This document shows, piece by piece, positions 44,311-59,444 of a DNA stretch of 64,000 bases (the first letter of the stretch is position 1; the number at the start of each line of letters is the position of its first letter). Origin of the DNA: Microbacterium sp. BK668 (GTDB taxonomy: Bacteria > Actinomycetota > Actinomycetes > Actinomycetales > Microbacteriaceae); contig NZ_SNWG01000001.1 in NCBI RefSeq assembly GCF_004362195.1, positions 1,550,001 through 1,614,000 of the forward strand, in the 5' to 3' direction. A model generated the notes under the pieces. That model worked only from the letters and a program-made list of their open reading frames with translations, was not told where the DNA came from and ran no database searches. The position numbers and the translations under genes were made by a program.

Positions 44311-44326
44311 GCGCTCCGCGTCGTCG

Positions 44327-44374
44327 GTCGGAGGATCCGCCCTGCGTCGGACGATTCCCGCGGATTCCTCCGAC
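44327..44374. repeat. Imperfect inverted repeat after fprA
   Basis: Arms gtcggaggatccgc (44327-44340) and gcggattcctccgac (44360-44374) are reverse complements apart from one inserted base, with a 19-nt loop. It is a candidate fprA terminator without a T tract. The rest of the 178-bp gap holds ttcgcg-rich sequence and no gene. Confidence 0.45.
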
Positions 44375-44475
44375 GTCGGCGCGAATCTCCGACGTTCGCG
44401 AGGTTCGCGGCGCTCCCGAGGTTCGCGGGGTCCCGAGCGGCCGGGGGACGGATGCCGCGCCCCGCGGCGCCCTCG

Positions 44476-44481
44476 TAGGCT
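44476..44481 (+). promoter_or_regulatory. -10 element TAGGCT for the alpha/beta hydrolase gene
   Basis: TAGGCT is followed by 7 nt and the ATG at 44489. No Shine-Dalgarno sequence is present. Confidence 0.5.
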
Positions 44482-44488
44482 GAGCCGC

Positions 44489-45469: not shown

Positions 45470-45517
45470 CCCCGGTCGAGGGTTAGAACACACTTTCGAA
45501 TGTCGGCGCGGGCGCGG

Positions 45518-45523
45518 TAATCT
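45518..45523 (+). promoter_or_regulatory. -10-like TAATCT before the small conserved gene
   Basis: TAATCT lies 34 nt upstream of the ATG at 45558, and a GGAGGAAGGAAG ribosome-binding region (45536-45547) follows it. This promoter would make a leadered mRNA, in contrast to many neighbours. Confidence 0.4.
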
Positions 45524-45557
45524 GGACTCTCGGCCGGAGGAAGGAAGAGCCGCCCCG

Positions 45558-45851
45558 ATGGCCGATTGGCACCCGATCCTCAGCGCCGTCGAGGGGCCGA
45601 CCGGCACCTGGCGGATGGTCGACGGACAGGGGCGCGCGTACGGGCACATCGAGATCCGTCGTGTCATGAACGGCACCGGCGTGCGCTACAAGACGGTCTA
45701 CCGCGGCGAGGTCATCGGCTGGGCGACGAGCCTTCGGGTGGCGTGCGAGCGGGTTCACAGCGCCTTCATCCGGGCGCACGGGCCGGGAGGCGGACCGATC
45801 GCCGACTGGGGCTCGCGCAGCGCCGCGCACGATGATCGACGGATGCCGTGA
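45558..45851 (+). CDS. Small conserved-looking hypothetical protein
   Basis: 97 residues starting MADWHPILSAVEGPTGTWRM. A clear purine-rich RBS lies upstream. The sequence is compact and mixed alpha/beta (YGHIEIRRVMNGTGVRYKTVYRGEVIGW), with no membrane helix or signal peptide and a basic C-terminus. I do not recognise a domain. Codon composition is like the surrounding genes, so it is probably real. Confidence 0.7.
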   Translation: MADWHPILSAVEGPTGTWRMVDGQGRAYGHIEIRRVMNGTGVRYKTVYRGEVIGWATSLRVACERVHSAFIRAHGPGGGPIADWGSRSAAHDDRRMP

Positions 45852-45891
45852 CCCGACGCTGCCCCGGGAGGTCGCCGGGCGCTCCTCGCGT

Positions 45892-45972
45892 CGCGTGGAT
45901 CGCCGCGCCCCGGAGGTGCGGCGGGCGAGGCATCCATCCTGCCCGCACGCCACGCGTGGATCGCCGCGCCCC
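45892..45972 (+). repeat. 20-bp direct repeat in a non-coding gap
   Basis: Two exact copies of cgcgtggatcgccgcgcccc lie at 45892-45911 and 45953-45972, with 41 bp between them. They fall between the two small genes. A frame from GTG 45848 crosses them but reads as Pro/Arg-rich low-complexity sequence. Confidence 0.6.
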
Positions 45973-46006
45973 CGTGGGGCAGAGTAGTGCCGTGGAGGAG
46001 CGGCGC

Positions 46007-46195
46007 ATGTGGTGGTGGACCCTCATCGGGTCGGCGTTCGCCCTGCTGGCCGGCCTCCTCCTCGCGATGGCCGCGCTCCTGTCGGGGCGCATCAGCCTTC
46101 TGCTGTTCATGGCCCTGGCCATCGTCGTCGCGGCCGGGGTCGGCGTCGTCGTCGCGATCGGCGGTCTGCGGCGCACGCCCCGCGGGCGCGGCTGA
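46007..46195 (+). CDS. Small two-helix membrane protein
   Basis: 62 residues, MWWWTLIGSAFALLAGLLLA and on. Two hydrophobic helices (about residues 3-24 and 28-51) end in a basic RRTPRGRG tail, which predicts a cytoplasmic C-terminus. GGAGGAG at 45994-46000 lies 6 nt before the ATG. In-frame GTG starts at 45992 and 45848 exist, but the latter adds unlikely Pro/Arg-rich sequence. No family recognised. Confidence 0.6.
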   Translation: MWWWTLIGSAFALLAGLLLAMAALLSGRISLLLFMALAIVVAAGVGVVVAIGGLRRTPRGRG

Positions 46196-46482
46196 CATCC
46201 CGCCCGCGACATCGACCGGACGGGCGCCGCAGCCCCGCGGCGACAGGCTCCCCGGCTGCTCCGACGACATGTGGCGACATGAAGCGCGCGCCTCGTTGCC
46301 GTGGATGATCCGCCCCCGCGGTACGGCGATCGCGCTCGTCCACGGAGAAATCCCTGGCCAGACGTGTGATCACCGCACGGGCCGGGCGTCCGCCCCAGAC
46401 CCGGTGGCGGCCGACGCGGCCGGGAACGACACGGGGCGTCATATGGCGGGCGACGCGGGCAGACGGCTCTGCCGAGTGTCAA
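46196..46482. other. Non-coding gap before the sulfur operon
   Basis: No convincing gene is seen here. Overlapping frames show no RBS and read as Pro/Arg-rich shadow sequence. The end of the gap holds the promoter of the following operon. Confidence 0.5.
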
Positions 46483-46488
46483 TAGTCT
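46483..46488 (+). promoter_or_regulatory. -10-like TAGTCT upstream of the sulfur operon leader
   Basis: TAGTCT would start transcription near 46495, about 24 nt before the candidate leader ORF and about 240 nt before sseA. No convincing -35 was found. The long leader argues for post-initiation control. Confidence 0.4.
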
Positions 46489-46518
46489 GACCGGACCACC
46501 TCGACAGACAGGACTCCG

Positions 46519-46653
46519 ATGCGACCCGCACCGTTCACCGAGACCCTCCCGGGTCCCGCGTCTCGGTGCGCCGCGCACGACGTCGAAGAGACCAGCCGCT
46601 GTCGTTTGCCGGATGGCCGAATGCGCTGCCGCGCCCTCGCGGCGATGCGCTGA
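46519..46653 (+). CDS. Candidate cysteine-containing leader peptide upstream of the sulfur operon
   Basis: A 44-codon ORF from ATG 46519 to TGA 46651-46653, with a weak RBS (cagga, 46509-46513). It has three Cys codons at positions 17, 28 and 37 and an Arg-rich C-terminus ending MRCRALAAMR. It is followed by 79 nt before the sseA GTG. A 9-bp stem (46536-46544 with 46560-46568) lies inside it. Cys-containing leader peptides before sulfur genes are known in actinobacteria; the match here is by position and Cys content only, so it could be chance. Confidence 0.4.
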   Translation: MRPAPFTETLPGPASRCAAHDVEETSRCRLPDGRMRCRALAAMR

Positions 46654-46732
46654 GAGCGCGCCCCGCAGATCCCCCTCGTCACCGGCACTGGTGTGCCCGG
46701 TGCTCGACGTCCGCCCATTTCGAGAGGAAGCC

Positions 46733-47632
46733 GTGTCCCACATCCTCATCTCCGCCGAGGAGCTCGCCGATCTGATCGTCGCCGACCCCACCGTCCGCGT
46801 GCTCGACGTGCGGTGGCGGCTCGATCGACCCGACGGGCGCCCGGAGTTCCTCGCCGGCCACATCCCGGGTGCCGTCTACGTCGACCTCGACGACGAGCTC
46901 GCCGAGCACGGTGCACCGACCGACGGGCGGCATCCCCTGCCGTCGACGGCGCGGCTCCAAGCGGCGGCCCGACGGTGGGGGCTCAACGACGGCGAGACGG
47001 TCGTGGTGTACGACGACCTCAAATCGCTGTCGGCTGCACGTGCCTGGTGGCTGCTCACGGACGCGGGCGTGGAGGATGTACGCATCCTCGACGGGTCGCT
47101 GCGCGCGTGGACCGCCTCAGGCCGACCCTTGGAGACAGGCGATGTCGTCCCCGCCCCCGGCGGCGTCTCGCTCTCGCGGGGCCGGCTGGCGCAGCTCACC
47201 ATCGACGAAGCGGCAGATCTCGCGGAGACCGGCGTGCTCATCGACGTGCGTGCTGCCGAGCGCTACCGAGGGGACGTCGAACCGATCGACCCCCGGGCCG
47301 GACACGTGCCCGGCGCGCTCAACCGCTTCACCGGCGCGAACGTCGACACGGCCGGCAGGTTCCTCGACCCGGAGACCTTGCGCCAGGAGTTCGCCGCGCT
47401 CGGCGTCGTGCACGGATCCCCGGTCGGGGTGTACTGCGGCTCGGGGGTCACCGCCTCCCACGCCTTCGTCGCCCTCACGCTCGCCGGCTACCGCCCTGCG
47501 CTCTACGCCGGCTCGTGGAGCCAGTGGTCCAACCACCTCGATCGGCCTGTCGCGATCGGATCCCTTCCCGAGGGCGCTCTCGCCCCCGTGCCGTCAGCCC
47601 AGCCCGTCCACACAGAAGAGGAACTCTCATGA
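46733..47632 (+). CDS. sseA: 3-Mercaptopyruvate/thiosulfate sulfurtransferase (tandem rhodanese)
   Basis: 299 residues from GTG 46733, preceded by GAGAGGAAG. An in-frame ATG at 46613 exists but has no good RBS and overlaps the leader ORF. Two rhodanese domains (about residues 6-135 and 155-290). Only the second carries the catalytic Cys235 in the loop CGSGVTA, the 3-mercaptopyruvate sulfurtransferase type; the first domain has Asp/Leu there (VVYDDLKS) and is structural. It could mobilise sulfane sulfur released downstream. Its stop overlaps the next start (ATGA). Confidence 0.9.
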   Translation: MSHILISAEELADLIVADPTVRVLDVRWRLDRPDGRPEFLAGHIPGAVYVDLDDELAEHGAPTDGRHPLPSTARLQAAARRWGLNDGETVVVYDDLKSLSAARAWWLLTDAGVEDVRILDGSLRAWTASGRPLETGDVVPAPGGVSLSRGRLAQLTIDEAADLAETGVLIDVRAAERYRGDVEPIDPRAGHVPGALNRFTGANVDTAGRFLDPETLRQEFAALGVVHGSPVGVYCGSGVTASHAFVALTLAGYRPALYAGSWSQWSNHLDRPVAIGSLPEGALAPVPSAQPVHTEEELS

Positions 47633-48768
47633 CCGTCGAATTCATCAGCGCCGTCAACGTCCGACCGGGCGACGAGCTCAATCCGCCGTCGGGCAGAGGC
47701 CTGGACCCCGCATACCTCCGTCGATACTCCCTCGCCCTCGAGGAAGCGGGCTTCGACTACACGCTCGTGCCCTACGGCAGCGCGGGGGCGGACTCGTTCG
47801 TCGTCGCCACCGCGGTGGCGGCCGTCACCGAACGGATCAAGCCGATCGTCGCCGTCCGGCCCAACACCGTGTTCCCGACGGTGGCCGCACAGCAGCTCGC
47901 GACCCTCGACCAGTTCTCGAACGGCCGCGCTGTCGTCCACATCATCTCGGGCGGCAGCGACGCCGAGCAGGCGCGCCAAGGCGACTTCCTGAGCAAGGAC
48001 GAGCGCTACGACCGCTCGGCGGAGTGGATCGAGATTCTCCGCCGTTCGTGGACCGAGCAGACTCCCTTCAGTCACGAGGGGACCTACTACCGGTTCCGGG
48101 ACTTCGGTCCGGGCTTCGCTCCATACGGTGAGATCCCGATCTCGGTCGGTGGGTCGTCCGACGCGGCGTACCGGGTCGGCGGAGCGCTCGGCGACATCTT
48201 CGGGCTCTGGGGCGAGCCGCTCGCCGATACGCGGGATCAGATCGCGCGCGTCGCCGCGAGCGCAGCCGCCGCCGGACGCTCCGACACGCCGCGCATCTGG
48301 GTGACCTTCCGGCCGATCATCGCCGCAACCGACGAGCTGGCATGGGAGAAGGCTCACCGGCACATCGCGACGCTCGCCGAGAACTACGCCAATGCCGGCC
48401 TCGTGCCCTTCCGCGGGCAGACGGGCGCACCGCAGAATGTCGGGTCGCAGCGACTGCTGGATGCCGCGTCCCGCGGCGAAGTGCACGATCGCGCGCTGTG
48501 GACGAAGCCCGCCGCCGTGACGAACGCGCAGGGCGCGTCCACCGCCCTCGTGGGCAGTTACGATACGGTCGCGGCCGCGATCCTCGACTACGTGGACCTC
48601 GGCGCGGACCTCATCTCGATCCGCGGCTACGACAACCTCAATGACGCGATCGATTACGGTCGCCACGTCCTGCCGCTCGTGCGTCAAGAACTCGCGCATC
48701 GCGAGGCGACGGGCGTGCGCGGAGAGATCGTGCCTCAGCCCCCGATCGTCGAAGGCGTCCGCGCGTGA
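47629..48768 (+). CDS. SsuD-like FMNH2-dependent (alkanesulfonate-type) monooxygenase
   Basis: 379 residues, luciferase-like fold. Features: VAVRPNTVFPTVAAQQLATLD, the FMN-phosphate-binding-type stretch FSNGRAVVHIISGGSDAEQARQGDFL, WTEQTPFSHEGTYYRF, PISVGGSSDAAYRVGG, and the C-terminal ALVGSYDTVAAAILDYVDLGADLISIRG with QEL. This matches the SsuD/MsuD group that cleaves C-S bonds with O2 and FMNH2. The physiological substrate is unknown. ATGA/GTGA overlaps on both sides place it firmly in the operon; the FMN reductase at 58017 is the likely flavin donor. Confidence 0.88.
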   Translation: MTVEFISAVNVRPGDELNPPSGRGLDPAYLRRYSLALEEAGFDYTLVPYGSAGADSFVVATAVAAVTERIKPIVAVRPNTVFPTVAAQQLATLDQFSNGRAVVHIISGGSDAEQARQGDFLSKDERYDRSAEWIEILRRSWTEQTPFSHEGTYYRFRDFGPGFAPYGEIPISVGGSSDAAYRVGGALGDIFGLWGEPLADTRDQIARVAASAAAAGRSDTPRIWVTFRPIIAATDELAWEKAHRHIATLAENYANAGLVPFRGQTGAPQNVGSQRLLDAASRGEVHDRALWTKPAAVTNAQGASTALVGSYDTVAAAILDYVDLGADLISIRGYDNLNDAIDYGRHVLPLVRQELAHREATGVRGEIVPQPPIVEGVRA

Positions 48769-49922
48769 GCGTCGTGGCCGCCGCGGAGCTCCGGGAGGTC
48801 CGCCTCGACGCGGAGTCACTCCGGGCCGTGACGGCCACACTCGCTGCGCGGGCCCCCGCGCACGACGCGGACGGCTCGTTCCCGTGGCCCGGCATCCAGG
48901 CCGTGCACGAGGCGGGTCTGCTGACCGCTTCGGTGTCGGAGCGCGACGGCGGGCGCGGCCTCTCGGCACGGGAGACCGTCGAGATCTTCTCGGCGCTCGG
49001 TCGGGGTGATCCGTCCGTCGCCCTCATCACCGCGATGACCGTCGCCCAGCACGCGTTCCAGGCGGCGTCGCCAACCTGGCCCGCCGAGCTGTACGCGAAG
49101 GCTCTGCGCGAATCGGCGGAGCGTCCGACGCTCCTGAACGCCGTGCGGGCCGAGCCGGAGCTCGGCGCACCGGCCCGCGGCGGGCTGCCCGCCACGACCG
49201 CCCGCCGCACCGCCGACGGCTGGTCGGTCTCGGGCCGCAAAGCCTTCGCCACGGGCTCCGAGGGACTCGCCTACCACCTGGTCTGGGTCGTGACGGACGA
49301 GCCCGACCGGCGCGTCGGACATGTCATCGTGCCGGGCGACGATCCAGGGGTTCGCGTCGAGCGCACCTGGGATCACCTCGGCATGCGGGCGAGCGCGACG
49401 CACGACGTGGTCTACGGCGACGTGCGGGTCCCCTTCGAGAACTTCACCGGCGCGCCGGTCGGCACGGTGCCGAACAACGGCGTGATCCTGGGCCCGAGCG
49501 TGCTAGCGGTGCCGGCGCTGTATGTCGGCGTCGCACAGGCGGCGCTCGTGGCGTTCGCGGAGTACGCCCGCGAGCGCGTGCCGACCTCCCTCGGGCGTCC
49601 GATAGCCACGCTCGAGCGCATCCAGGTGGTCGCAGGCGAAGCGCGTGCGCAGATCACGCAGGCTGAGCTCGTGCTCAGCGCGGCGGCCGGCCGCATCGAC
49701 GAGGGAGCGCCGGATGCCGCATCCCTCGGTGTCCTGAAACTGCTCACGTCTCGCGGCGCGATCTCCGCCGTGCAGGGGCTCGTCGCCGCGATCGGCAATC
49801 CGGGCCTCACCCGCGGCCTGCCCTTCGAGAGGCATCTGCGCGATGTGCTGTGCGCTCGCCCGCATCCGCCACAGGACGATGCCGCGCTCCTGGCCGCCGG
49901 GCAGGCGCTCCTCCTTTCCTGA
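48765..49922 (+). CDS. Acyl-CoA-dehydrogenase-fold flavin monooxygenase (SfnB/DszC-like)
   Basis: 385 residues from a GTG overlapping the previous stop. It follows acyl-CoA dehydrogenase architecture: N-terminal helices, the middle beta domain (GWSVSGRKAFATGSEGLAYHLVWVV, then DHLGMRASATHDVVYGDVRVPFEN), and the C-terminal helical bundle. No evident fatty-acid degradation neighbours, and the place next to an SsuD-like enzyme fits the flavin-dependent sulfone/sulfide monooxygenases of this fold. A CoA dehydrogenase role remains possible. The substrate is undetermined. Confidence 0.82.
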   Translation: MSVVAAAELREVRLDAESLRAVTATLAARAPAHDADGSFPWPGIQAVHEAGLLTASVSERDGGRGLSARETVEIFSALGRGDPSVALITAMTVAQHAFQAASPTWPAELYAKALRESAERPTLLNAVRAEPELGAPARGGLPATTARRTADGWSVSGRKAFATGSEGLAYHLVWVVTDEPDRRVGHVIVPGDDPGVRVERTWDHLGMRASATHDVVYGDVRVPFENFTGAPVGTVPNNGVILGPSVLAVPALYVGVAQAALVAFAEYARERVPTSLGRPIATLERIQVVAGEARAQITQAELVLSAAAGRIDEGAPDAASLGVLKLLTSRGAISAVQGLVAAIGNPGLTRGLPFERHLRDVLCARPHPPQDDAALLAAGQALLLS

Positions 49923-49983
49923 CATCCCCTCCGTCCACCTCATCGCGAGACCCGTCCCACCACCGAGAGAGGCAAGACCCATC

Positions 49984-51651
49984 ATGAGCACGTCCCATCG
50001 ATACCGAACCCCTGCGCTGGCCGCGCTGGCCGCGGCATCCGTCCTCGTGATGGCAGGCTGCTCGGGAAGCACCGGCGGCGCGGCGAGTCCCGCAGCCCCG
50101 GGCGAGCCCGTCTCGGGAGGGGAGCTGACCGTCGAGTTCTGGCCCGACAACGCGGCCTTCTCGTGCGTCGACCCGTTCCAGACGTACTGGATCGAGCACC
50201 GTCAGGTGATCCGGAACGTCGCCGACTCGCTCACCGATCAGGATCCCCAGACCGGTGAGATCGTGCCGTGGCTCGCCACCGACTGGGAGGTCAGCGCGGA
50301 CGGGCTCACGTACCGGTTCGATCTGCGAGACGACGTCACCTTCAGCGACGGGACCGCCTTCACCGCCGACTCCGTCGTACTCGCACTGGAGAGCGCGAAG
50401 GCGACCCTCGCGGCCGTTCCCGGTGCCTACGGCGGGGTCTACATCTCGGGCTACGCATCGAGCACGGCCGTGGACGACGACACGGTGGAAGTGCGGTTCT
50501 CGACCCCCAATGCATCGTTCCTGCAGGGGACGTCGACCACCAACCTCGCGATCCTTGCCGCTTCCTCCTACGAGGCGACTCCTGAGGAGCGATGCCTCGG
50601 AGAGGTCGTGGGCTCGGGCCCCTTCGTCCTGGACGACTACACCCCCGCCGAGGGGATAGATCTTTCCAAGCGCGCCGGATACGCCTGGGCCAGTGAGCTG
50701 AACGACCACCAGGGCGAGGCGTACCTCGACGCGGTCCACATCAACTATGTGGCCGAGGACAGCGTGCGCGTCGGCAATCTCGCGAGCGGCGCCAGCGACA
50801 TCGCATGGCCACGCAACCCGTTCACACCCGAGGACCGCGCGCTGCTCGAGAGCAGCGGCGCGACCATCGAGAGTCGCTCGCTGCCGGGGCCGTCGCAGGC
50901 CTACTACCCGAACGTGAGCAACGGACACCCGCTGGCGGAGAAGGCGGTGCGAGACGCGCTGCAGATCGCGATCGATCGGGAGACGTACGCGGCGACGATC
51001 TACGGACCGGAGTACCCGGTGGTCGAGGGCGCCTTCGACACCACGACGCCGTTCTTCGTCAGCCAGGCGGACCAGCTCGCCTACGACCCGGACAGGGCCG
51101 GCGAGATCCTGGATGCGGCGGGCTGGGTGCTCGAGGACGGAGCCGAGTACCGCTCGCGCGACGGACAGACTCTCACGCTGGTCTCGCCCATCACCGCAGA
51201 GACGCCCGGCGACGTGCTGATCCAGGACCAGTTGAAGCAGGTCGGCATCGACCTGGAGCTGACGGTCTATCAACCCGCGGACCGCGCGGCGATCATCGCG
51301 AACGGCGACTACGACCTGCTGGCGACCTACTACACCAGGGCGGACCCCGGCGTGCTGGCGTGGATCCTCGACGAGCGATACGCCGGCTCCAAGGCCTTCG
51401 CGAAGAACGCGCAGACGGCAGAGACCGCGGCCGAGGTGCAGCGCCTCTTCGACGCAGGATTGCAGGAGACGGACGCCACCGTGCGGGGCGACATCTATGC
51501 CGAGCTGCAGGAGCTGCTCATCGCCGACGGGGTCTCCTTCCCGATCTTCGAGCGGGTGCAGGTGGCGGCGACGGCACCGGAGGTGAGCGGTTTCCGCTTC
51601 ACGAGCGAGTCGTTCCTGTCGTACTACGACATCTGGAAGAGCGCGGAGTAG
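49984..51651 (+). CDS. ABC transporter substrate-binding lipoprotein (Opp/Dpp, SBP family 5)
   Basis: 555 residues from ATG 49984 behind GAGAGAGG. Signal peptide with lipobox VMAGC (Cys26), then SBP_bac_5 features: VSGGELTVEFWPDNAAFSCVDPF, IVPWLATDWEVSADGLTYRFDLRDDVTFSDGTAFTADSVV, and a C-terminal lobe near AVRDALQIAIDRETYA. A 61-bp gap separates it from the previous gene, but it runs in the same operon with the permeases 4 bp downstream. Oligopeptide-type binding proteins also take up glutathione, opines and nickel chelates, so the ligand may be a sulfur-bearing small molecule. Confidence 0.9.
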   Translation: MSTSHRYRTPALAALAAASVLVMAGCSGSTGGAASPAAPGEPVSGGELTVEFWPDNAAFSCVDPFQTYWIEHRQVIRNVADSLTDQDPQTGEIVPWLATDWEVSADGLTYRFDLRDDVTFSDGTAFTADSVVLALESAKATLAAVPGAYGGVYISGYASSTAVDDDTVEVRFSTPNASFLQGTSTTNLAILAASSYEATPEERCLGEVVGSGPFVLDDYTPAEGIDLSKRAGYAWASELNDHQGEAYLDAVHINYVAEDSVRVGNLASGASDIAWPRNPFTPEDRALLESSGATIESRSLPGPSQAYYPNVSNGHPLAEKAVRDALQIAIDRETYAATIYGPEYPVVEGAFDTTTPFFVSQADQLAYDPDRAGEILDAAGWVLEDGAEYRSRDGQTLTLVSPITAETPGDVLIQDQLKQVGIDLELTVYQPADRAAIIANGDYDLLATYYTRADPGVLAWILDERYAGSKAFAKNAQTAETAAEVQRLFDAGLQETDATVRGDIYAELQELLIADGVSFPIFERVQVAATAPEVSGFRFTSESFLSYYDIWKSAE

Positions 51652-51655
51652 CACG

Positions 51656-52612
51656 ATGACGAGATACGTGCTCCAGAGGGTGGGCCAGGCTGTCCTGGTG
51701 CTGTGGGCGGCCTACACCGTGACCTTCGTGATCCTCTACCTGCTGCCGGGTGACCCTGTCGCCCTGATGCTGTCGGCCAACAACATCGAGGTCGATTCGC
51801 TCACGCCGCAGGAGAGGGAGGTGGCCGCGGCCCGGCTCGGACTCGACCGTCCTCTCTGGGAGCAGTATCTCGGCATGCTCGGGGCGGCGCTGCGCGGCGA
51901 CTTCGGGACGTCCTTCACGAAGGGCATCCCCGTGACGGAGCTGCTCGCGCAGCGCCTCCCCGGCACCTTTCTGCTCAGCGCAGTCGCGATAGCCCTGGCT
52001 CTCGCGCTCGGGCTGGCGATCGCCCTGGTCGCCGTGTGGCTGCCGCGCGGGCGGATGGCCGACCTCTTCCGCCGGGCTCCGGCGATCGGGGTCAGCGTCC
52101 CGAACTTCTGGATCGGCCTGCTCCTGATCCAGGTGTTCGCCTTCACCCTCGGGTGGTTCCCGGCGATGGGCAGCGAGGGGTGGCAGAGCCTCGTGCTGCC
52201 GGCTGTCACGATGGCGATCCCCACCGCTGCGGTCCTCGCACAGGTGCTCACCCGCAGCTTCGACGACACGCTCGGCGAGTCGTACATCGCCACCGCGCGA
52301 GCGAAAGGCCTGGATCGCTGGGCGGTGCTCATCCGCCACGCCCTCCGCAACGCGGCCCTGCCGACGCTGACGATCCTCGGACTCCTCGTCGGGGCGACGG
52401 TCACCGGCTCGATCGTCGTCGAGACCGTGTTCTCCCGCAACGGCGTGGGCCGACTCGCGCAGGAGTCTGTGCTGTCGCAGGACATCCCGGTCGTGCAGGC
52501 GATCGTCGTGCTGGCCGCGGCCGCGTTCGTGGTCGTCAATCTCGTCGTCGACCTGCTCTACCCGCTGCTGGACCCCCGTATCGCCCGAACCCCGAGAGTG
52601 AGCCGCGCATGA
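51656..52612 (+). CDS. ABC transporter permease (DppB/OppB type)
   Basis: 318 residues. MTRYVLQRVGQAVLVLWAAYTVTFVILYLLPGDP is the N-terminal helix and GDP motif of DppB/OppB permeases. About six membrane helices; the cytoplasmic EAA-type loop ESYIATARAKGLDRWAVLIRHALRNAALP contacts the ATPase. It heads the membrane part of the importer, and its stop overlaps the start of the second permease (ATGA). Confidence 0.93.
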   Translation: MTRYVLQRVGQAVLVLWAAYTVTFVILYLLPGDPVALMLSANNIEVDSLTPQEREVAAARLGLDRPLWEQYLGMLGAALRGDFGTSFTKGIPVTELLAQRLPGTFLLSAVAIALALALGLAIALVAVWLPRGRMADLFRRAPAIGVSVPNFWIGLLLIQVFAFTLGWFPAMGSEGWQSLVLPAVTMAIPTAAVLAQVLTRSFDDTLGESYIATARAKGLDRWAVLIRHALRNAALPTLTILGLLVGATVTGSIVVETVFSRNGVGRLAQESVLSQDIPVVQAIVVLAAAAFVVVNLVVDLLYPLLDPRIARTPRVSRA

Positions 52613-53517
52613 CCGACCTCCTCGAGAAGCCTGCTGCTCGGAACACCGCCGCGGTCGCCGCCCCGCTCGCGCCCGCGGCGGGCGATTCGCGTCCCCGCCG
52701 GACTCCCGGGCCGTTCGCGGGCCTCCTGCGCCGGCCAGGGGTGATCGTCGCGCTCGCGGTCGTCGCGTTCGCGATCCTCACCGCGATCGTGCCGTCGGTG
52801 TTCGCGACGTACGATCCGACGGCGACCGAGCCGGCCGTCCGGCTGCAGCCGCCCAGCCTGCAGCACTGGTTCGGCACGGATGAGCTCGGCCGCGACCTCT
52901 ACTCGCGCGTCGTCCACGGCTCGACACTCACGATCGCCGCCACGGCGCTCGCGATCGGCATCGCGCTGCTGGCCGGACTCACCCTCGGGGTGTTGGCGGG
53001 CTTCGTCGGCGGGGGAGTGGATGCCGTCATCATGCGTATCGTCGACGTCTTCCTCGCGATTCCCGGTCTGCTGCTCGCGCTCGCGATCGTGACGGCACTG
53101 GGCTTCGGCACCATCCCCGTCGCCGTCGCGGTGGGCATCGGGATCGTCCCAGGCTTCGCCCGCACGACGCGCGCCGAAGTGCTGCGCGTGAAGACCCTGC
53201 CCTACATCGAGGCCGCACGATGCGGCGGCGCCTCCTGGGGCCGCATCCTGATCACGCATGTGCTGCCGAACTCATGGGGGCCGGTCGTCGTGCTCGCGGT
53301 GCTGGATTTCGGAGCCGCGATCCTGGCCGTGGCGGCCCTCAGCTTCCTCGGCTTCGGCGCTGCACCCCCCGCGGCGGAATGGGGCACGCTCATCTCGAAC
53401 GGGCGCAACTACCTGATCACCGCGCCCTGGGTGTCACTCCTGCCGGGGCTCTTCGTGGCGCTCGTCGTGCTGAGCCTGAATCATCTCGCGAAGAGTCTCG
53501 AGGAGGTGCAGCGATGA
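52609..53517 (+). CDS. ABC transporter permease (DppC/OppC type)
   Basis: 302 residues from ATG 52609; the frame extends upstream into the first permease but that part is not used. An N-terminal cytoplasmic Ala/Pro-rich stretch of about 35 residues, then DppC features: LQHWFGTDELGRDLYSRVVHGS, the EAA-like loop YIEAARCGGASWGRILITHVLPN, and SFLGFGAAPPAAEWG. About six membrane helices. Overlapping ends (ATGA on both sides) couple it to the first permease and to the ATPase gene. Confidence 0.93.
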   Translation: MTDLLEKPAARNTAAVAAPLAPAAGDSRPRRTPGPFAGLLRRPGVIVALAVVAFAILTAIVPSVFATYDPTATEPAVRLQPPSLQHWFGTDELGRDLYSRVVHGSTLTIAATALAIGIALLAGLTLGVLAGFVGGGVDAVIMRIVDVFLAIPGLLLALAIVTALGFGTIPVAVAVGIGIVPGFARTTRAEVLRVKTLPYIEAARCGGASWGRILITHVLPNSWGPVVVLAVLDFGAAILAVAALSFLGFGAAPPAAEWGTLISNGRNYLITAPWVSLLPGLFVALVVLSLNHLAKSLEEVQR

Positions 53518-55142
53518 GCACCGGGACGACCGATGCCCTCATCGACATCCGGGGACTGTCGGTCGAGTATCGACGCGACGGCCGAGTCACCCACGCGCTG
53601 CGCGGCATCGACCTCCAGGTCGCGCGCGGGGAGCGCGTGGCGATCGTGGGCGAGTCCGGCTCGGGTAAGAGCACCGCCGCGCTGACGCTGCTCGGACTGC
53701 TGCCCCACACGGGGCATGTCGTCGCCGGTTCGGCGAAGGTCGCGGGACACGAGCTCGCTGGCGTTCCGGACCGCGTCGCCCGGCGCCTGCGCGGACGGGT
53801 GATCGGGCTCGTCCCCCAGGATCCCACCGTCTCGCTCAACCCGACCCAGCGTGTCGGGCATCAGGTCGCCGAAGCCGTGCGGCTGCGCGGCGTGACGAAG
53901 CCCGCGGTCGACGCCGCCGTCCTGGCGGCGCTGGCCCAGGCCGGCATCGACGACCCGGTCGCTCGGGCCCGGCAATACCCCCACGAACTGTCCGGGGGCC
54001 TCCGCCAGCGGGTGCTGATCGCGATCGCTCTGGCAGGCGACCCGCAGGTGATCGTCGCGGACGAGCCGACCAGCGCCCTCGACGTCACGGTCCAGCGCAG
54101 GATCCTCGATCATCTCGACGCGCTCGTGACCGAGCGGGACATCGCCCTGCTGATCATCACGCATGATCTCGGCGTCGCCGCCGACCGCGCCGATCGGGTC
54201 GTGGTGCTGCAGAACGGTCTCGTGGTGGAGCAGGGAGCCGCGATCGACGTGCTGGCGGCCCCTGCCGATGCGTACACGCGCCGACTGGTCGCGGCCGCGC
54301 CCGGGCTGGTCTCCGTCGAGCCGCCGCGCGAACCCGACCCGCCGAGCCCCGTCCTGGTGCGCTGGGACGCCGTGGTCAAGGACTTCCCCATGCCGAAGGG
54401 GGCGGCGCCCGCGTACCTGCGTGCCGTGGACGGAGTGAGCCTCGAGGCTCGGGCGGGACGGACACTGGCCATCGTGGGCGAGTCGGGCTCGGGCAAGACG
54501 ACGCTGCTGCGACTCGCACTGGGTCTGGAGAGCCCGACGGAGGGACGCGTCCTGTTCGACGGAATCGACGTGGCCGCACTCAGCCGGCGCGAGTCGCGCC
54601 CGCTGCGCCGCCGGTTCCAGCTCGTGCAGCAGAACCCGTTCTCGTCGCTGGATCCGAGATTCTCGATCGGGCGGAGCGTCGCAGAGCCGCTCGTCGCTTT
54701 CGGCATCGGCACCCGGCGGTCGCGGCGTGCGCGCGTCGCGGAGCTGCTCGAGCTCGTCGCGCTGCCGGCCGATGCCGCGGCCCGAAGGCCGGCGGAGCTT
54801 TCGGGCGGACAGCGTCAGCGTGCGGCCATCGCGCGCGCACTGGCGATCGAACCCGAGCTGCTGTACCTCGACGAGCCGGTCTCGGCCCTCGACGTGTCAG
54901 TGCAGGAGCAGGTTTTGCGCCTGCTGGCGGGACTTCAGAGCGACCTCGGCGTCGGGTTCGTCCTCGTCTCGCACGATCTCGGGGTCGTGACGCAGGTGGC
55001 TCACGAGGTGGCGGTGGTACGGCGCGGCCGGGTGCTCGAGCACGGCCCCGCGTCGTCGGTGCTGGCCGACCCCGCCCACGAATACACCCGGGCGCTGCTG
55101 GATGCCGTCCCCGGCCGATCCCTTCGGGAGGCGCTCTCATGA
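53514..55142 (+). CDS. ABC transporter ATPase with two fused nucleotide-binding domains (DppD-DppF type)
   Basis: 542 residues. The N-terminal NBD (about 1-265) has Walker A GESGSGKST (46-54), signature LSGGLRQRV and Walker B VIVADEPTSALD. The C-terminal NBD (about 280-540) has GESGSGKTT, LSGGQRQRA and LLYLDEPVSALD. The first signature carries GGL instead of GGQ, still compatible with function. Many Gram-positive Opp-type importers have such a fusion. It energises the two permeases just upstream. The stop overlaps the next start. Confidence 0.92.
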   Translation: MSTGTTDALIDIRGLSVEYRRDGRVTHALRGIDLQVARGERVAIVGESGSGKSTAALTLLGLLPHTGHVVAGSAKVAGHELAGVPDRVARRLRGRVIGLVPQDPTVSLNPTQRVGHQVAEAVRLRGVTKPAVDAAVLAALAQAGIDDPVARARQYPHELSGGLRQRVLIAIALAGDPQVIVADEPTSALDVTVQRRILDHLDALVTERDIALLIITHDLGVAADRADRVVVLQNGLVVEQGAAIDVLAAPADAYTRRLVAAAPGLVSVEPPREPDPPSPVLVRWDAVVKDFPMPKGAAPAYLRAVDGVSLEARAGRTLAIVGESGSGKTTLLRLALGLESPTEGRVLFDGIDVAALSRRESRPLRRRFQLVQQNPFSSLDPRFSIGRSVAEPLVAFGIGTRRSRRARVAELLELVALPADAAARRPAELSGGQRQRAAIARALAIEPELLYLDEPVSALDVSVQEQVLRLLAGLQSDLGVGFVLVSHDLGVVTQVAHEVAVVRRGRVLEHGPASSVLADPAHEYTRALLDAVPGRSLREALS

Positions 55143-56137
55143 GCCGTTACATCGTCATCGGCGCAGGCGCGCTGGGCGCTCTGCTGGCCGCGCAATGGAC
55201 GATCGCCAAGAGCCCCGTCACGCTCGTCGCCCGCGGCGCTTCGTACGACACGATCGTTCGGAACGGCGTGCGGGTGCGCCGGCCCGAAGGCGACCAGACC
55301 GTCTCGGTCGATGTCGTCTCGTCGATCGGCTCGGCCGCCCCGCTCGCGTCTGACACGGTGGTGCTGGCAGTCAAGTCCCAGGACGGCGAGTCCGCGATCT
55401 CCGCGATCGCGTGGGTTCCGCTCGCCGACGGCTCGGGTGTGGTCGCCGACCTTCCCATCCTCACGCTGCAGAACGGCCTCGCCACCGAAGACGCGGCACT
55501 GCGCCGCTTCGACCGCGTGATCGGCGTCTCGGTCGGCATCCCCGCCAGCCACCTCGAGCCGGGCATCGTCGTCTCTCCCGCCAGGCCCGTCGTGGGCGTC
55601 GCCTGGATCGGCGGCTATCCCGCGTCGCTGCCGGCGGAGGAGGAGAGGCACAGGGTCGCATTCGCGCGAGCAGGGTTCGCCGCGCTCATCGAACCCGATA
55701 TCGCGGCGGCCAAGCGCCGCAAGCTCATCGCCAATCTCCGCAACGTCGTCGATGTCTTCGACGCGACGCCCGAGGAGCAGGAGCATGCCGAGGCGGCCCT
55801 GGCCGAAGAGGCCCGCCGCGTCTTCGCGGCGGCGCGGCTGCGAGTCGCGGCACCTCCCTGGGACGCGCCACGGATCGAGGTGGCCGATGTCCCCGGCCAC
55901 GAACGCGGCCACCTCTCGACGTGGCAGAGCTTCGCGAGGGGAGCGTCCAGTGAGGTCGACTTCCTGAGTGGAGAGATCGCGCTGATCGCGCGGCGGCACG
56001 GTGTGCACGCGCCCCTGAACGCCGCGGTGGCGCGTGAGCTCGGCAAGCTCGCCACGCAGGGCGGCCGACCGGGACAGGTTCCCCTGCCGCCCGAGTTCGC
56101 CTCCGGGTCGCTCACCCGCGAGCGGGCGCGGGCGTGA
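55139..56137 (+). CDS. Ketopantoate reductase family (PanE/ApbA-like) oxidoreductase
   Basis: 332 residues. N-terminal NADPH motif YIVIGAGALGALLAA (residues 4-18), DTVVLAVKSQD, LQNGLA, then a C-terminal helical domain with a candidate catalytic Lys in AAKRRKLIANLRNVVDVF and a closing SSEVDFLSGEIALIARRHGVHAPLN typical of PanE. No other pantothenate gene is nearby, so it may act on another 2-keto acid from the imported compound. That substrate is inference. Overlaps both neighbours. Confidence 0.85.
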   Translation: MSRYIVIGAGALGALLAAQWTIAKSPVTLVARGASYDTIVRNGVRVRRPEGDQTVSVDVVSSIGSAAPLASDTVVLAVKSQDGESAISAIAWVPLADGSGVVADLPILTLQNGLATEDAALRRFDRVIGVSVGIPASHLEPGIVVSPARPVVGVAWIGGYPASLPAEEERHRVAFARAGFAALIEPDIAAAKRRKLIANLRNVVDVFDATPEEQEHAEAALAEEARRVFAAARLRVAAPPWDAPRIEVADVPGHERGHLSTWQSFARGASSEVDFLSGEIALIARRHGVHAPLNAAVARELGKLATQGGRPGQVPLPPEFASGSLTRERARA

Positions 56138-57468
56138 CCCTGTCGCCGGCGGTCGACGCGTGGGCCGAAGAAGAGCCCGGTGCCGCGACCGACCGATCGG
56201 GGTGGCCGGGAGGCATCCCATCCCGCGTCGTCCGCCCTCGTGCGGTGATCGAGGTGCAGCAGCTGCTCGCCGAGGCCTACCGGACGCGCACCCCGGTGAT
56301 CCCGCGAGGTGCGGGATCCGGACTCGCCGCGGGCGCCGTCGGGGTCGAGGGCGCGATCCTGCTCGACCTCTCGGCGCTCGACCGGATCCTGGAGCTCGAC
56401 GCCGACGAGCAGCTGGCGCGGGTGGAACCCGGCGTCATCACCGCGGATCTGGATGCCGCGGCATCCGCTCACGGCCTGATGTACGCCCCCGACCCGGGCA
56501 GCGTCGGCATCTCGACGATCGGCGGGAACATCGCCACCAACGCGGGCGGTCTGCGCGGTGCGAAGTACGGGGTGACTCGCGACCACGTCCTCGCCCTCGA
56601 TGTCGTGCTGGCCGACGGGAGTCTCGTGCGTGTCGGCCGCGACACCATCAAGGGCGTCACCGGGTACGACCTCGTCAGCCTGTTCACGGGGTCCGAGGGC
56701 ACCCTCGGAGTGGTCGTCGGCGCCACCGTGCGGCTCATCCCGCGACCGGCGCGCACCGCGACCGCGGCGGCTTACTTCGCCGACATCGCCACGGCCGCTC
56801 GCGCTGTGACCGCGATCACGCGCTCCGGCGTGCGCCCGGCGGTGCTCGAGATCCTCGACGGTCGCACGCTCGCGGCGATCGACGACCTGGAGGGAACGGC
56901 GCTGCGCGAGCGCGGCGACGCCCTCGTAGTGATCCAGACGGACGGGTACGGCGCCGAGGAAGAGCTGGAGGTGCTGACATCGGCGATCGCCGCGCTCGCC
57001 ACCGACGTGCAGACGGCGACGGATGCCGCGGCATCCGATGCGCTGCTCTTCGCACGCCGACGCGCCCTGCCCGCCCTCGAGGCGCTCGGGCGCGTGCTGA
57101 TCGAGGACATCGCGGTCCCGCGCAAGCGGCTGGCGGAGGCCGTCGACGGGATCTCGGATATCGCCCAGGAGGAGGGCGTCGACATCTTCGTCTTCGGGCA
57201 CGCGGGCGACGGGAACCTGCACCCGATCATCGTCACCGAGCGCGGGGCGGCGGACGACCCCGTGCCCGACGCGGCCGCTTCGGCCGCCGAGCGGATCTTC
57301 GCGCTCGCTCTCGAACTCGGTGGCACGATCACGGCCGAGCACGGCGTAGGACGGCTGAAGAAGGAGTGGGCCCTCCGCGAGCTGGGGCCGGAGGTGCACG
57401 CACTGCAGTGGCGGCTCAAGGAGGCGTTCGATTCCCGCGGCATCCTGAACCCGGGCAGCAGCCTCTGA
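56134..57468 (+). CDS. FAD-linked oxidase (GlcD/D-2-hydroxy acid dehydrogenase type)
   Basis: 444 residues from a GTG overlapping the previous stop. FAD-binding PCMH domain: PVIPRGAGSGLAAGA, GSVGISTIGGNIATNAGGLRGAKYGVTRDHV, TGSEGTLGVV. C-terminal domain: the metal-site-like FGHAGDGNLHP, then GTITAEHGVGRLKKEW and RGILNPG. Such enzymes oxidise 2-hydroxy acids (glycolate, lactate and others) to keto acids. It ends the operon; 26 bp separate it from the convergent AhpD-like gene. The natural substrate is unknown. Confidence 0.88.
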   Translation: MTLSPAVDAWAEEEPGAATDRSGWPGGIPSRVVRPRAVIEVQQLLAEAYRTRTPVIPRGAGSGLAAGAVGVEGAILLDLSALDRILELDADEQLARVEPGVITADLDAAASAHGLMYAPDPGSVGISTIGGNIATNAGGLRGAKYGVTRDHVLALDVVLADGSLVRVGRDTIKGVTGYDLVSLFTGSEGTLGVVVGATVRLIPRPARTATAAAYFADIATAARAVTAITRSGVRPAVLEILDGRTLAAIDDLEGTALRERGDALVVIQTDGYGAEEELEVLTSAIAALATDVQTATDAAASDALLFARRRALPALEALGRVLIEDIAVPRKRLAEAVDGISDIAQEEGVDIFVFGHAGDGNLHPIIVTERGAADDPVPDAAASAAERIFALALELGGTITAEHGVGRLKKEWALRELGPEVHALQWRLKEAFDSRGILNPGSSL

Positions 57469-57494
57469 GAACTCCTCTGCCGACCACCGGCGGA

Positions 57495-57851
57495 TCAGTG
57501 CCGGTGTGCGGGCGCGACAGCATCCTCCGCGAACTTGAACGCGAGGCGACCGTGCGCGATCCCGCCGCCGGCGCGGATCGCGGTCGCCACCCAGGCGGTC
57601 TCGGCGAGTTCGGCTTCGGTCGCCCCGGCGCGCACCGCCTTCTGCGTGTGGCCGTCGATGCAGTAGACGCACTGGGTCGTGATGCCGACGGCCAGTGCGA
57701 TCAGCTCACGGAACTTCAGCGGGATCTCCCGTCCTTCCGAGGCGAAGACGGCGGCGTCGAAGTCGACCCAGGACCTCAGGATGTCGGGGGTCTCGCTCTT
57801 GTAGACGCGGGTGTAGGCGCGGTCGCCGTCGCGGTCGAAGAAGTCGCTCAT
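57495..57851 (-). CDS. Carboxymuconolactone decarboxylase/AhpD-like protein
   Basis: 118 residues from the ATG at 57851, preceded by AAAGGA with 6 nt spacing; a GTG at 57866 adds five residues. The family core is ELIALAVGITTQCVYCIDGHTQKAVRAGATEAELAETAWVATAIRAGGG, with the CxxC redox pair CVYC and nearby His. AhpD-type proteins act as peroxidase or disulfide reductants. The CxxC and the neighbouring sulfur genes suggest thiol redox chemistry. It is encoded opposite to the operon, so regulation is separate. Confidence 0.87.
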   Translation of the reverse strand: MSDFFDRDGDRAYTRVYKSETPDILRSWVDFDAAVFASEGREIPLKFRELIALAVGITTQCVYCIDGHTQKAVRAGATEAELAETAWVATAIRAGGGIAHGRLAFKFAEDAVAPAHRH

Positions 57852-58004
57852 CCTGGTTCCTTTCACGGTACGGGCCGGTCCGGCGTCCGCATCGGACTGT
57901 CACGGTACCGACGCCCATGGATGTCCCGAGGACGCCGTTACGCGAGATGACGCCCGTGTGACGTCCGGTTTCGGGGGCCGGGGCGGGTCCGGCTTCCCCC
58001 GCCG

Positions 58005-58010
58005 TACCGT
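58005..58010 (+). promoter_or_regulatory. -10 element TACCGT for the FMN reductase gene
   Basis: TACCGT is followed by exactly 6 nt and ATG 58017, with no Shine-Dalgarno sequence. Leaderless start predicted. Confidence 0.5.
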
Positions 58011-58016
58011 CGGCTC

Positions 58017-58640
58017 ATGACCACCATCGCCGCTTCCCTCGATGGCTCGCCGACACCGGCTCCCTTGCGCGCTCCGCTCAAGGTCGTCGGGGTCTCCGGA
58101 TCACTGCACACACCCAGCAAGACGACAGCCCTCGTCTCGGCGATCATCGGCGAGGTCGCAAGCCGGGCACGGACCGAGTCGCGGCTCATCGAACTCGCCG
58201 AGATCGGTCCGTCGCTCGCGGGCGTGCTTCATCGGGCGGACCTGCCGCCCGACGTCGCGGAAGCGCTCCGCGCCATCGAGGGAGCCGACCTGCTCGTGGT
58301 CGCCAGTCCCGTCTACCGCGCGTCCTTCACGGGCCTTTTCAAGCACCTTTTCGACTTCGTCGATCAGTACGCGCTCGTCGGTCAGCCCGTGCTGCTGGCG
58401 GCCACCGGCGGCGGCGAGCGCCACGCGCTGATCATCGAGCACCAGCTGCGGCCGCTCTTCGGCTTCTTCCAGGCGATCACGCTCCCGCTGGGCGTGTACG
58501 CGAGCACCGCCGACTTCGACGGCCACGAGCTGCGCAGCACGGGGGCGCACCAGCGTATCGAGCAGGCCGTCTCGCGCGGGCTGCCCCTCATCGAGCAGGC
58601 AGCACAGCTCTCGACGTCCGATTACGTGTCGACCTGGTGA
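58017..58640 (+). CDS. NAD(P)H-dependent FMN reductase (MsuE/SsuE-like)
   Basis: 207 residues, flavodoxin-like. FMN-phosphate loop VVGVSGSLHTPSKTTALV (residues 23-40), then LLVVASPVYRASFTGLFKHLFDFVD, the typical SPVYRAS..GLFK motif of MsuE/SsuE reductases, and LLAATGGGERHALIIEHQLRPLFGFF. It should supply FMNH2 to the SsuD-like and acyl-CoA-dehydrogenase-like monooxygenases encoded at 47629-49922. It has its own promoter, so it is a separate unit of the same pathway. Confidence 0.9.
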   Translation: MTTIAASLDGSPTPAPLRAPLKVVGVSGSLHTPSKTTALVSAIIGEVASRARTESRLIELAEIGPSLAGVLHRADLPPDVAEALRAIEGADLLVVASPVYRASFTGLFKHLFDFVDQYALVGQPVLLAATGGGERHALIIEHQLRPLFGFFQAITLPLGVYASTADFDGHELRSTGAHQRIEQAVSRGLPLIEQAAQLSTSDYVSTW

Positions 58641-58671
58641 TCCCGGCGCACGTCTGGCGAGAAGCCGGGCG

Positions 58672-58683
58672 GGCGGTACCGCC
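58672..58683. terminator. Palindrome between convergent FMN reductase and yajQ genes
   Basis: GGCGGTACCGCC is a perfect 12-bp palindrome with GC-rich flanks in the 52-bp gap between two convergent genes. It may act as a bidirectional terminator; the evidence is weak. Confidence 0.3.
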
Positions 58684-58692
58684 GGGCGCGGC

Positions 58693-59181
58693 TCAGCGGT
58701 AGTTGACGAACTGCAGGTCGACGTCGAGGTCGGCCGCCTTGAGGAGCCGCTGCACCTCCTGCAGGTCGTCGCGGGACTTCGACTGCACGCGCAGCTCGTC
58801 GCCCTGGATCTGCGACTTGACCGACTTCGGCCCCTCGTCGCGGATGATCTTGCTGATCTTCTTGGCGTTCTCGGACGAGATGCCGTCCTTGATCGTCGAG
58901 GTGATCCGGTACTCCTTGCCGCTGGCGACGGGATCGCCCGACTCGAGGCTCTTCAATGAGATGCCGCGCTTGATGAGCTTCGACTGGAAGACGTCGAGCA
59001 CCGCTTTCGCCCGCTCCTCGGAGTTCGCCTTGATGAGTACGGCCTCGCCGCTCCACTCGATCGAGGCAGCCGTGCCCTTGAAGTCGTAGCGCTGCTCGAC
59101 CTCCTTGCGGGCCTGATTGAGCGCGTTGTCGGCCTCCTGGTGATCGACCTTGGAGACGATGTCAAAACTCGAGTCAGCCAT
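58693..59181 (-). CDS. yajQ: YajQ family nucleotide-binding protein
   Basis: 162 residues covering the whole family: [20 protein letters not shown] at the N-terminus, [56 protein letters not shown] and the C-terminal LQFVNYR. YajQ proteins bind nucleotides, with cyclic di-GMP binding reported for some. Its role here is unknown. The minus-strand ATG is preceded by TAGACT at 6 nt spacing, so it is leaderless. Confidence 0.95.
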
Positions 59182-59187
59182 GCGGGG

Positions 59188-59193
59188 AGTCTA
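59188..59193 (-). promoter_or_regulatory. -10 element TAGACT for yajQ
   Basis: On the minus strand TAGACT is followed by exactly 6 nt and the yajQ ATG at 59181. Confidence 0.55.
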
Positions 59194-59230
59194 CTGGCGA
59201 CGGAAACCGGAACGCGGAGCATCGCTGTTC

Positions 59231-59244
59231 TGCAAGCGTTTGCA
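59231..59244. promoter_or_regulatory. LacI-type operator 1 upstream of malE
   Basis: TGCAAGCGTTTGCA has 5-bp inverted arms around a CpG centre, the shape of LacI/GalR-family operators. It lies 114 bp upstream of a second copy. Confidence 0.55.
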
Positions 59245-59316
59245 TGTCAGCGGCGGTGTGAGCGCTATCCACACTCCTGGAAGTCACGAACGCATATCGA
59301 ATCGCGTGATCCGGTG

Positions 59317-59358
59317 TTGCGCAGGCGTGCGCACGTGGTAACAATGTAAGCGCTTGCA
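59317..59358 (+). promoter_or_regulatory. malE promoter with LacI-type operator 2
   Basis: TTGCGC (59317-59322) and AACAAT (59340-59345) are spaced 17 nt and form a -35/-10 pair. The operator TGTAAGCGCTTGCA (59345-59358), with the perfect core AAGCGCTT, lies at the start site. A LacI-family repressor would block initiation. No repressor gene is present in the window. Confidence 0.6.
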
Positions 59359-59444
59359 ATTCGAGCGAGCAGAAGAACGGCCTTCAACGGTGCATCCACC
59401 GGTCAAGGCCGGCATCCCAATACTGCACTCAGAGAGGCACACCG

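Follow-up and report, generated by a model that had tools for sequence, protein, structure and literature searches.

Gene organization and conservation of the operon

The 64,000-nucleotide stretch of the Microbacterium sp. BK668 genome (3.73 Mb) analysed here, referred to as the window, contains nine plus-strand genes in one run at positions 46733–57468, which encode a mercaptopyruvate-sulfurtransferase-like protein (ST), two flavin monooxygenases, an importer, a PanE-like 2-oxo/2-hydroxy-acid oxidoreductase and a GlcD-like dehydrogenase. As a preliminary description of this DNA had stated, the genes are tightly packed: six of the eight junctions are 4-base overlaps, and the other two are a 4-base gap and a 61-base gap, the latter between the genes for the DszC-like monooxygenase and the lipoprotein. 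This operon very probably serves organosulfur scavenging in general, because an MsuE-type flavin mononucleotide (FMN) reductase gene, the neighbouring sulfur genes and homology all point in this direction; the role in organosulfur acquisition that was proposed at the outset is supported by the MsuE assignment and by these neighbourhoods. Within the operon, the PanE-like protein and ST behave as one module, often as one fused protein in other actinobacteria.

PanE orthologues (55–84% identity) were found in 12 other genomes when 149 same-genus genomes, including the source genome, were searched. The comparison set consisted of 46 other fetched stretches of about 12 to 21 kb each, and the locus counts rest on tblastn because a simple gene caller missed some genes; L059–L061 and L066–L070 were dropped as repeats of loci already in the set, and L081 as a partial match (32%). 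The complete nine-gene order is present at eight Microbacterium-type loci, namely the window and seven others (L047, L049, L062–L065 and L073), so that the conservation of gene order in actinobacteria, suggested earlier as a check, was found. The AhpD-like gene is adjacent in seven of these eight loci and the MsuE gene in six. The genes flanking the operon (DUF520, MalE and hydrolase genes) gave no match at E ≤ 1e-25 in the 46 other stretches, and the nine-gene unit is therefore discrete. PanE orthologues in L048 and L050 (77 and 71%, respectively) lack the remaining operon genes nearby, with the AhpD gene kept in L050, and are possible operon remnants. The stretch L059, from a record titled Planococcus sp. 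APC 4015 (JASDDH010000007.1), contains the whole Microbacterium-type operon at 77–91% identity; the record is probably misnamed.

The PanE-like protein and the sulfurtransferase

ST (46733–47632, plus strand) has two rhodanese domains and the active loop CGSGVT. The loop reads CGSG[VI]T in all 31 rows covering the site (one further row ends short), and CG(S)GVT, which we take to be the catalytic loop of 3-mercaptopyruvate sulfurtransferase (MST), is also present in 1urh and 4jgt. Presuming R188 and R197 to be the substrate arginines of human MST, the first is retained in ST, and the second is replaced by I, V or L, with a conserved R or K three residues further. The PanE-like protein (55139–56137, plus strand) is a PanE/ApbA family member with PF02558 and PF08546; the Lys and Glu that are presumably catalytic in this fold occur in 47 of 47 rows, and the score against ketopantoate reductase TIGR00745 (102.3 bits) is below the cut-off of 141.35.

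The preliminary description listed the sulfurtransferase and PanE separately. Both genes are present as described; their fusion in relatives argues for one module instead. A class-wide search gave a PanE match at E ≤ 1e-40 in 104 of 394 genomes, and among the 29 of these 104 with fetched loci, to which the fusion test applied, 21 have PanE (N-terminal) and ST (C-terminal) in one open frame, all of them in family f25. When one fusion was used to search a database, 750 matches were returned; PF02558 and PF00581 occurred together in all of the best 120 of the 750, and the matches listed included proteins of Frankia, Parafrankia, Pseudofrankia, Lentzea, Pseudonocardia and others. Thirty aligned fusions retain the Lys and Glu of PanE and the CGSG-T loop of ST. 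In an AlphaFold model of a fusion, the domains are confident (mean predicted local distance difference test score, 87.4) and match PanE and D-mandelate dehydrogenase structures, with human MST as the best match of the second half; the predicted template modelling score of 0.62 makes the domain arrangement unusable.

In a maximum-likelihood tree built from 58 PanE rows, 10 background rows separated from the 48 others (support 100/99). To the latter, system side belong 47 rows associated with the system and L137, a background row that has no neighbouring system genes; this side spans two phyla, with the Alphaproteobacteria falling within it and the fusions forming one group (99/95). Among the 11 background loci (L074, L075, L077–L080, L137, L145 and L147–L149), the sole other match in the tblastn table was an ATPase in L077 (42%), and weaker similarities to the luciferase-like monooxygenase and the ATPase appeared in other comparisons. 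ST adjoins or lies within 33 of 37 actinobacterial system-side PanE rows versus none of the 10 background rows (Fisher p about 2e-7), a tally that is only indicative because the rows are related and were counted by hand; L058 was scored as positive on the basis of the overlapping L070.

Monooxygenases and FMN reductase

The two flavin monooxygenases have different folds, as had been noted. The luciferase-like monooxygenase (LLM; 47629–48768, plus strand) has a Bac_luciferase domain, and its best NCBIfam models are alkanesulfonate monooxygenase (SsuD, TIGR03565; 189.8 bits, cut-off 518.2) and the dimethylsulfone monooxygenase SfnG (TIGR04021; 136.9 bits, cut-off 382.95), both scores being far under the cut-offs. 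The DszC/SfnB/MsuC-like protein (48765–49922, plus strand) has the acyl-CoA dehydrogenase fold and scores below the cut-offs of SfnB (TIGR04022; 80.4 vs 430.9 bits) and DszC (NF043015; 37.7 vs 850 bits). Its nearest structures are 5gj7/5z8t, for which no publication was found in our literature search. By alignment, its C-terminal region, presumably the site of the catalytic glutamate of acyl-CoA dehydrogenases, reads RPHPPQDD and resembles NPPMDD of 5gj7/5z8t. Beside the operon, downstream, lies the FMN reductase gene (58017–58640, plus strand); its product, previously called SsuE-like, is indeed an FMN reductase but of the MsuE type, because it passes the equivalog cut-off of TIGR03566 (249.6 vs 212.5 bits).

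The sulfonate-binding motif of SsuD/MsuD consists of Trp195, Arg225 and Arg296 of MsuD and an RGGA loop, and alanine variants of these three residues gave no measurable sulfite, according to PMC8234197. We aligned 26 LLM rows, 25 of which, including the window, cover these sites (Trp196, Arg226 and Arg297 in E. coli numbering). The position of Arg226 is Thr in all 25 rows, and that of Arg297 is Thr in 20 and Ala in 5; the loop, aligned with a 2-residue gap, contains any Arg in only 2 of 25. The Trp is kept in 25 of 25 rows, and an Arg at the position of His228, two residues from Arg226, is invariant in all rows covering it. Judging from the alignment, the LLM may bind another anion, or a shifted sulfonate, via this Arg. 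The earlier reading of the LLM as an SsuD-type sulfonatase is thus weakened by the replacement of both arginines.

These residues bear on an msuEDC/sfn-like route, in which the DszC-like protein and the LLM would yield sulfite from a sulfone, sulfinate or sulfonate, and PanE, GlcD and ST would serve only to process the carbon skeleton or to remove toxic by-products. Such a route would agree with the MsuE reductase, with SsuD/SfnG and SfnB-type models giving the LLM and DszC-like enzymes their best or good scores, with the invariant Trp and Arg near the sulfonate site, with the sulfite-reductase genes beside an NMT1-type importer in the source genome and with a rhizobial cluster near sfnG (see below). 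However, both sulfonate-binding Arg positions are replaced in every one of the 25 rows, and the PanE–ST fusion would be left unexplained; we regard this route as rather unlikely.

Importer, GlcD-like protein and AhpD-like protein

A substrate-binding lipoprotein of the SBP_bac_5 family (49984–51651; lipobox assigned by eye), two Opp/Nik-type permeases (51656–52612 and 52609–53517) and a fused double ATP-binding cassette (ABC) ATPase of 542 aa with two ATPase domains (53514–55142), all encoded on the plus strand, constitute the full Opp-type importer that had been described. The best NCBIfam model of the lipoprotein is TIGR04028, whose cut-off it does not reach (268.2 vs 468.5 bits); it also scores with the GsiB and NikA models, and its nearest solved binding proteins are NikA-like. 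The preliminary description set this importer against the SsuABC type of known SsuD systems. A general absence of Opp-type importers from LLM systems is not supported: NCBIfam pairs the TIGR04028 binding protein with the TIGR04027 LLM, and the two occur together in Rhizobium NXC24. The NikA-like structures would suit an ordinary peptide or metal-chelate importer that happens to adjoin unrelated oxidoreductases. Against this, the unit and its order are conserved across genera, and in a second phylum the same partners have msuE and further sulfur genes as neighbours, which makes this explanation highly improbable.

The GlcD-like protein (56134–57468, plus strand), a flavin adenine dinucleotide (FAD)-dependent 2-hydroxy-acid dehydrogenase/oxidase, scores 383.3 bits against glycolate oxidase TIGR00387 (cut-off 567.9), and its nearest structure is glycolate oxidase, followed by lactate dehydrogenases. 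The AhpD/CMD-like gene reported beside the operon is located at 57495–57851 on the minus strand. The presence of 2-hydroxy/2-oxo-acid enzymes would also be in line with C4 or larger thioether acids (methionine hydroxy analogue, thiodiglycolate or 4-mercaptobutyrate) as the substrate, PanE and GlcD interconverting the 2-oxo and 2-hydroxy forms, and the DszC-like protein weakly matches 3-sulfinopropanoyl-CoA desulfinase (90.8 bits, cut-off 600). An MST-type sulfurtransferase is not predicted for such substrates, and we consider them quite improbable.

Variants in other Actinomycetota

Other arrangements of these genes were found within and outside the genus. In Microbacterium L053, ST–PanE–MsuE lies beside an importer and proteins that pass the TIGR04027, TIGR04029 and TIGR04030 cut-offs; L051, L052 and L054 resemble it, as does L066 by BLAST. 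L056–L058, L071 and L072 have a LysR gene, the DszC-like gene, the importer with a different binding protein (27–29% identical), the LLM, PanE and a separate AhpD–ST pair, some with a second LLM, and GlcD is present in all except the truncated L057. The Rathayibacter-type loci L130–L132, from the same family but outside the genus, show the order LysR–LLM–DszC–substrate-binding protein (SBP)–permease–permease–ATPase–PanE–hydrolase–GlcD–ST, the hydrolase being assigned by eye. In Streptomyces radicis, the order is ST–LLM–SBP–permease–permease–ATPase–NtaA/DmoA-type LLM–PanE–hydrolase–GlcD–MsuE-like, and in L142 (family f25) it is LLM–DszC–SBP–permease–permease–ATPase–[PanE–ST]–GlcD. The transporter and the monooxygenases vary more across the loci than PanE, ST and GlcD do, a pattern suggesting that these three act on a common product.

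Two further proteins were observed among these loci. L053 encodes at 11425–13626, between the TIGR04027-type genes and ST–PanE–MsuE, a protein of 733 aa in which an LLM/F420-type domain and a BBE-type FAD oxidase are combined, and similar proteins occur in L051, L052 and L054. The S. radicis ABC ATPase (L076, 6415–8739; 774 aa) appears, by eye, to have an extra C-terminal LLM-like stretch.

Relatives in Alphaproteobacteria

PanE relatives were present on 17 alphaproteobacterial plasmid records, and 11 of them were fetched and compared. All 11 loci have a binding protein/importer of this type, 10 have a homologue of the S/N-oxide reductase (those of L165 and L167 being split or partial), and six have an LLM 59–62% identical to that of the window. 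Rhizobium NXC14 carries S/N-oxide reductase–SBP–permease–permease–ATPase–LLM–LLM–DszC-like–PanE–msuE, in which the enzyme with the acyl-CoA dehydrogenase fold is 48% identical to the window DszC-like protein, and the island that carries this cluster has sfnG, an SfnB-family gene and msuE. In Rhizobium NXC24, the neighbours of the cluster are an alkyl/aryl-sulfatase and two binding proteins, one of TIGR04028 and one for sulfonate. The pAt plasmid of Agrobacterium tumefaciens Yub001 combines PanE, sseA and GlcD-like genes with an S/N-oxide reductase (955.8 bits against bisC_fam, cut-off 1017.6) and the importer, its sseA product scoring above the 3-MST cut-off of NF008557 (282.8 vs 250). Ketogulonicigenium has SBP–permease–permease–ATPase–PanE–LLM–sulfurtransferase, with 203.3 bits for the sulfurtransferase against NF008557. 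These two sulfurtransferases are only 34–35% identical to the window ST, and MST may therefore have been recruited separately.

In five rhizobial loci (L161, L164, L165, L168 and L171), PanE is followed by a TetR regulator and a DsbA/2-hydroxychromene-carboxylate-isomerase-like protein. Together with the S/N-oxide reductase of the rhizobial versions, the latter protein would be compatible with sulfur salvage from S-conjugates of plant or own origin (glutathione, mycothiol or mercapturate-type products, e.g., S-aryl thiolactic acids), as would the scores of the binding protein with the GsiB and NikA models. Peptidase, deacetylase and beta-lyase were not found among the window operon genes, and we judge this salvage unlikely; with a thiolactate as the conjugate, such salvage would be a special form of the route proposed next.

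Proposed sulfur-scavenging route

Under sulfur starvation, the operon would be active, and the lipoprotein and the Opp/Nik-type importer would bring in a small 3-mercapto-2-hydroxy (or 2-oxo) acid with a substituent on the sulfur, or the sulfoxide of such an acid. Both monooxygenases, supplied with FMNH2 by MsuE, would oxidize the sulfur or the adjacent carbon, which would release the S-substituent. The GlcD-like and PanE-like proteins would then convert the 2-hydroxy acid, of the mercaptolactate type and perhaps as two enantiomers, to a mercaptopyruvate-type 2-oxo acid, from which the MST-like ST would take off the sulfur as a cysteine persulfide and leave pyruvate. We infer the substrate, the order of the steps, the direction of the PanE and GlcD reactions and the persulfide end product; the gene content, the conserved unit, the PanE–ST fusion in relatives, the intact catalytic residues of PanE and ST, the replaced arginines of the LLM and the sulfur neighbourhoods were observed. 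This specific route of import, C–S cleavage, oxidation and persulfide formation is favoured, tentatively, because it uses every conserved part. Of the carboxylated thioether, sulfoxide or sulfonate substrate put forward in the preliminary description, a thioether or sulfoxide is plausible, and a sulfonate is weakened by the replaced Arg positions. With somewhat greater reserve, Actinomycetota and Alphaproteobacteria may have in common a so far undescribed route that assimilates organic sulfur as sulfane sulfur and not as sulfite: flavin monooxygenases would dealkylate S-substituted acids of the mercaptolactate type, and a PanE-type dehydrogenase, in physical contact with MST and often fused to it, would hand the mercapto-oxo acid directly on to persulfide formation.

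Several observations speak against the persulfide route. The substrate class rests on enzyme families. The window ST scores 147 bits against the 3-mercaptopyruvate sulfurtransferase model NF008557 (cut-off 250), and 31 of 31 ST relatives have EP[IVL]DP[RK] where E. coli and human MST have the EPR motif, so the sulfur donor may not be 3-mercaptopyruvate. ST was not found near L048, L050, L055 or L137, and only 2 of the 11 fetched alphaproteobacterial loci have it; since the fusions belong to one clade, and to one family in the class sample, they may go back to a single event. The Trp and the neighbouring Arg retained by the LLM count on the same side. Finally, the source genome carries 3'-phosphoadenosine-5'-phosphosulfate (PAPS)- and sulfite-reductase genes, and released sulfite would therefore be usable, while no BisC-type S-oxide reductase near the cut-off was found in this genome (74.5 vs 1017.6 bits).

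Much of the sulfur in soil is organic. The flavin-dependent systems that we know to scavenge it (ssu, msu, sfn and dsz) have sulfite as their end product. The operon or its core, present in Microbacterium, Rathayibacter-type relatives, Frankia relatives, S. radicis and Rhizobium plasmids, would have a different end step, and similar gene sets recur across soil and root-nodule bacteria of two phyla. The two-domain PanE–ST protein is directly testable and offers a lead on the neighbouring hypothetical TIGR04027/TIGR04028 systems.

Comparison with known systems

The TIGR04027/TIGR04028/TIGR04029/TIGR04030 set (KPN_01854–01858, Avi_7169/7170) likewise comprises a binding protein, two permeases, a double ATPase, an LLM and CMD/AhpD-type proteins, and it adjoins ST–PanE–MsuE in L053 and L066 and, by annotation, PanE in Rhizobium NXC24. 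The window operon differs in that its SBP does not reach the cut-off of TIGR04028, it has an LLM of the SsuD/SfnG type, and it holds DszC-like, GlcD-like, PanE and ST genes. NCBIfam files the four families as hypothetical equivalogs without a function, and KPN_01858 is mentioned once in PMC7194016.

With msuEDC/sfnG, which act on methanesulfonate and dimethylsulfone, the window shares the MsuE-type reductase, an SsuD/SfnG-like LLM and a monooxygenase of the acyl-CoA dehydrogenase fold; it differs in the replaced sulfonate-binding Arg positions, a dedicated importer, PanE, GlcD and ST. The ssuEADCB system is likewise a two-component FMN monooxygenase for sulfur acquisition but differs in importer type, reductase type and sulfonate-binding residues. 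The 4S pathway, dszABC(D), has a DszC-like protein, an LLM and a flavin reductase in common with the window, and the Rathayibacter-type and Streptomyces versions add to this likeness an alpha/beta-hydrolase-like gene assigned by eye (best NCBIfam score of the Streptomyces one, 19.5 bits); in contrast, the window has hydroxy-acid enzymes and an importer, no recognised DszB, and a DszC model score of just 37.7 versus 850. ST shares with SseA and human MPST the tandem rhodanese domains, the CGSGVT loop and the first substrate arginine, but its EPR motif is replaced, its score lies below the equivalog cut-off, and it is adjacent or fused to a PanE-like enzyme. A literature search of titles and abstract openings found no description of the nine-gene operon or of a PanE–ST (PanE–rhodanese) fusion. 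The operon appears to belong to two-component flavin-dependent organosulfur scavenging, with a PanE–ST module that is apparently undescribed.

Upstream region and other observations

Upstream of the operon, the motif GACACGnnGCGTCAYA (46428–46443, plus strand) precedes a -10-like TAGTCT assigned by eye (46483–46488). Similar motifs occur in same-order and ST–PanE–MsuE Microbacterium loci, and the source genome contains the motif at one exact place and at two more with one mismatch; it is a possible operator. Between the motif and ST, a leader open reading frame (ORF) of 44 codons (46519–46653, plus strand) has Cys and Met codons near its end (..CRLPDGRMRCRALAAMR*) and matched no NCBIfam family. 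A comparable upstream ORF (R-M-[RC] plus Cys) is present in 7 of 8 same-order loci, a count reached by 0 of 1000 dinucleotide shuffles, the motif having been chosen after inspection of the data and the loci being related. Upstream of the Rathayibacter-type and S. radicis operons, too, there are short ORFs that contain Cys (no control was run). Candidate cysteine leader peptides of cys operons in other actinobacteria are reported in PMC1262725. The leader ORF is a candidate sulfur-amino-acid attenuator and is no more than suggestive. Riboswitch control was rejected, as no Rfam family scored above the gathering score in seven loci and window positions 42000–60000 gave one chance-level match (E 0.85).

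An operator shared with the cys operon of the source genome is improbable, the motif having been looked for and not found in the three own-genome stretches L155–L157. In L155 (C1:720000–732000), sulfite/PAPS-reductase genes occur with CysD- and CysN-like genes (by eye) and adjoin, on the same strand, genes for an NMT1-type binding protein, an ATPase and a permease. Elsewhere in the window, a 7204-codon open frame (65–21679, plus strand) contains RTX calcium-binding repeats, a Calx-beta domain, CBM5/12 and a 3-keto-disaccharide-hydrolase-like stretch, and perhaps encodes a giant surface or secreted protein.

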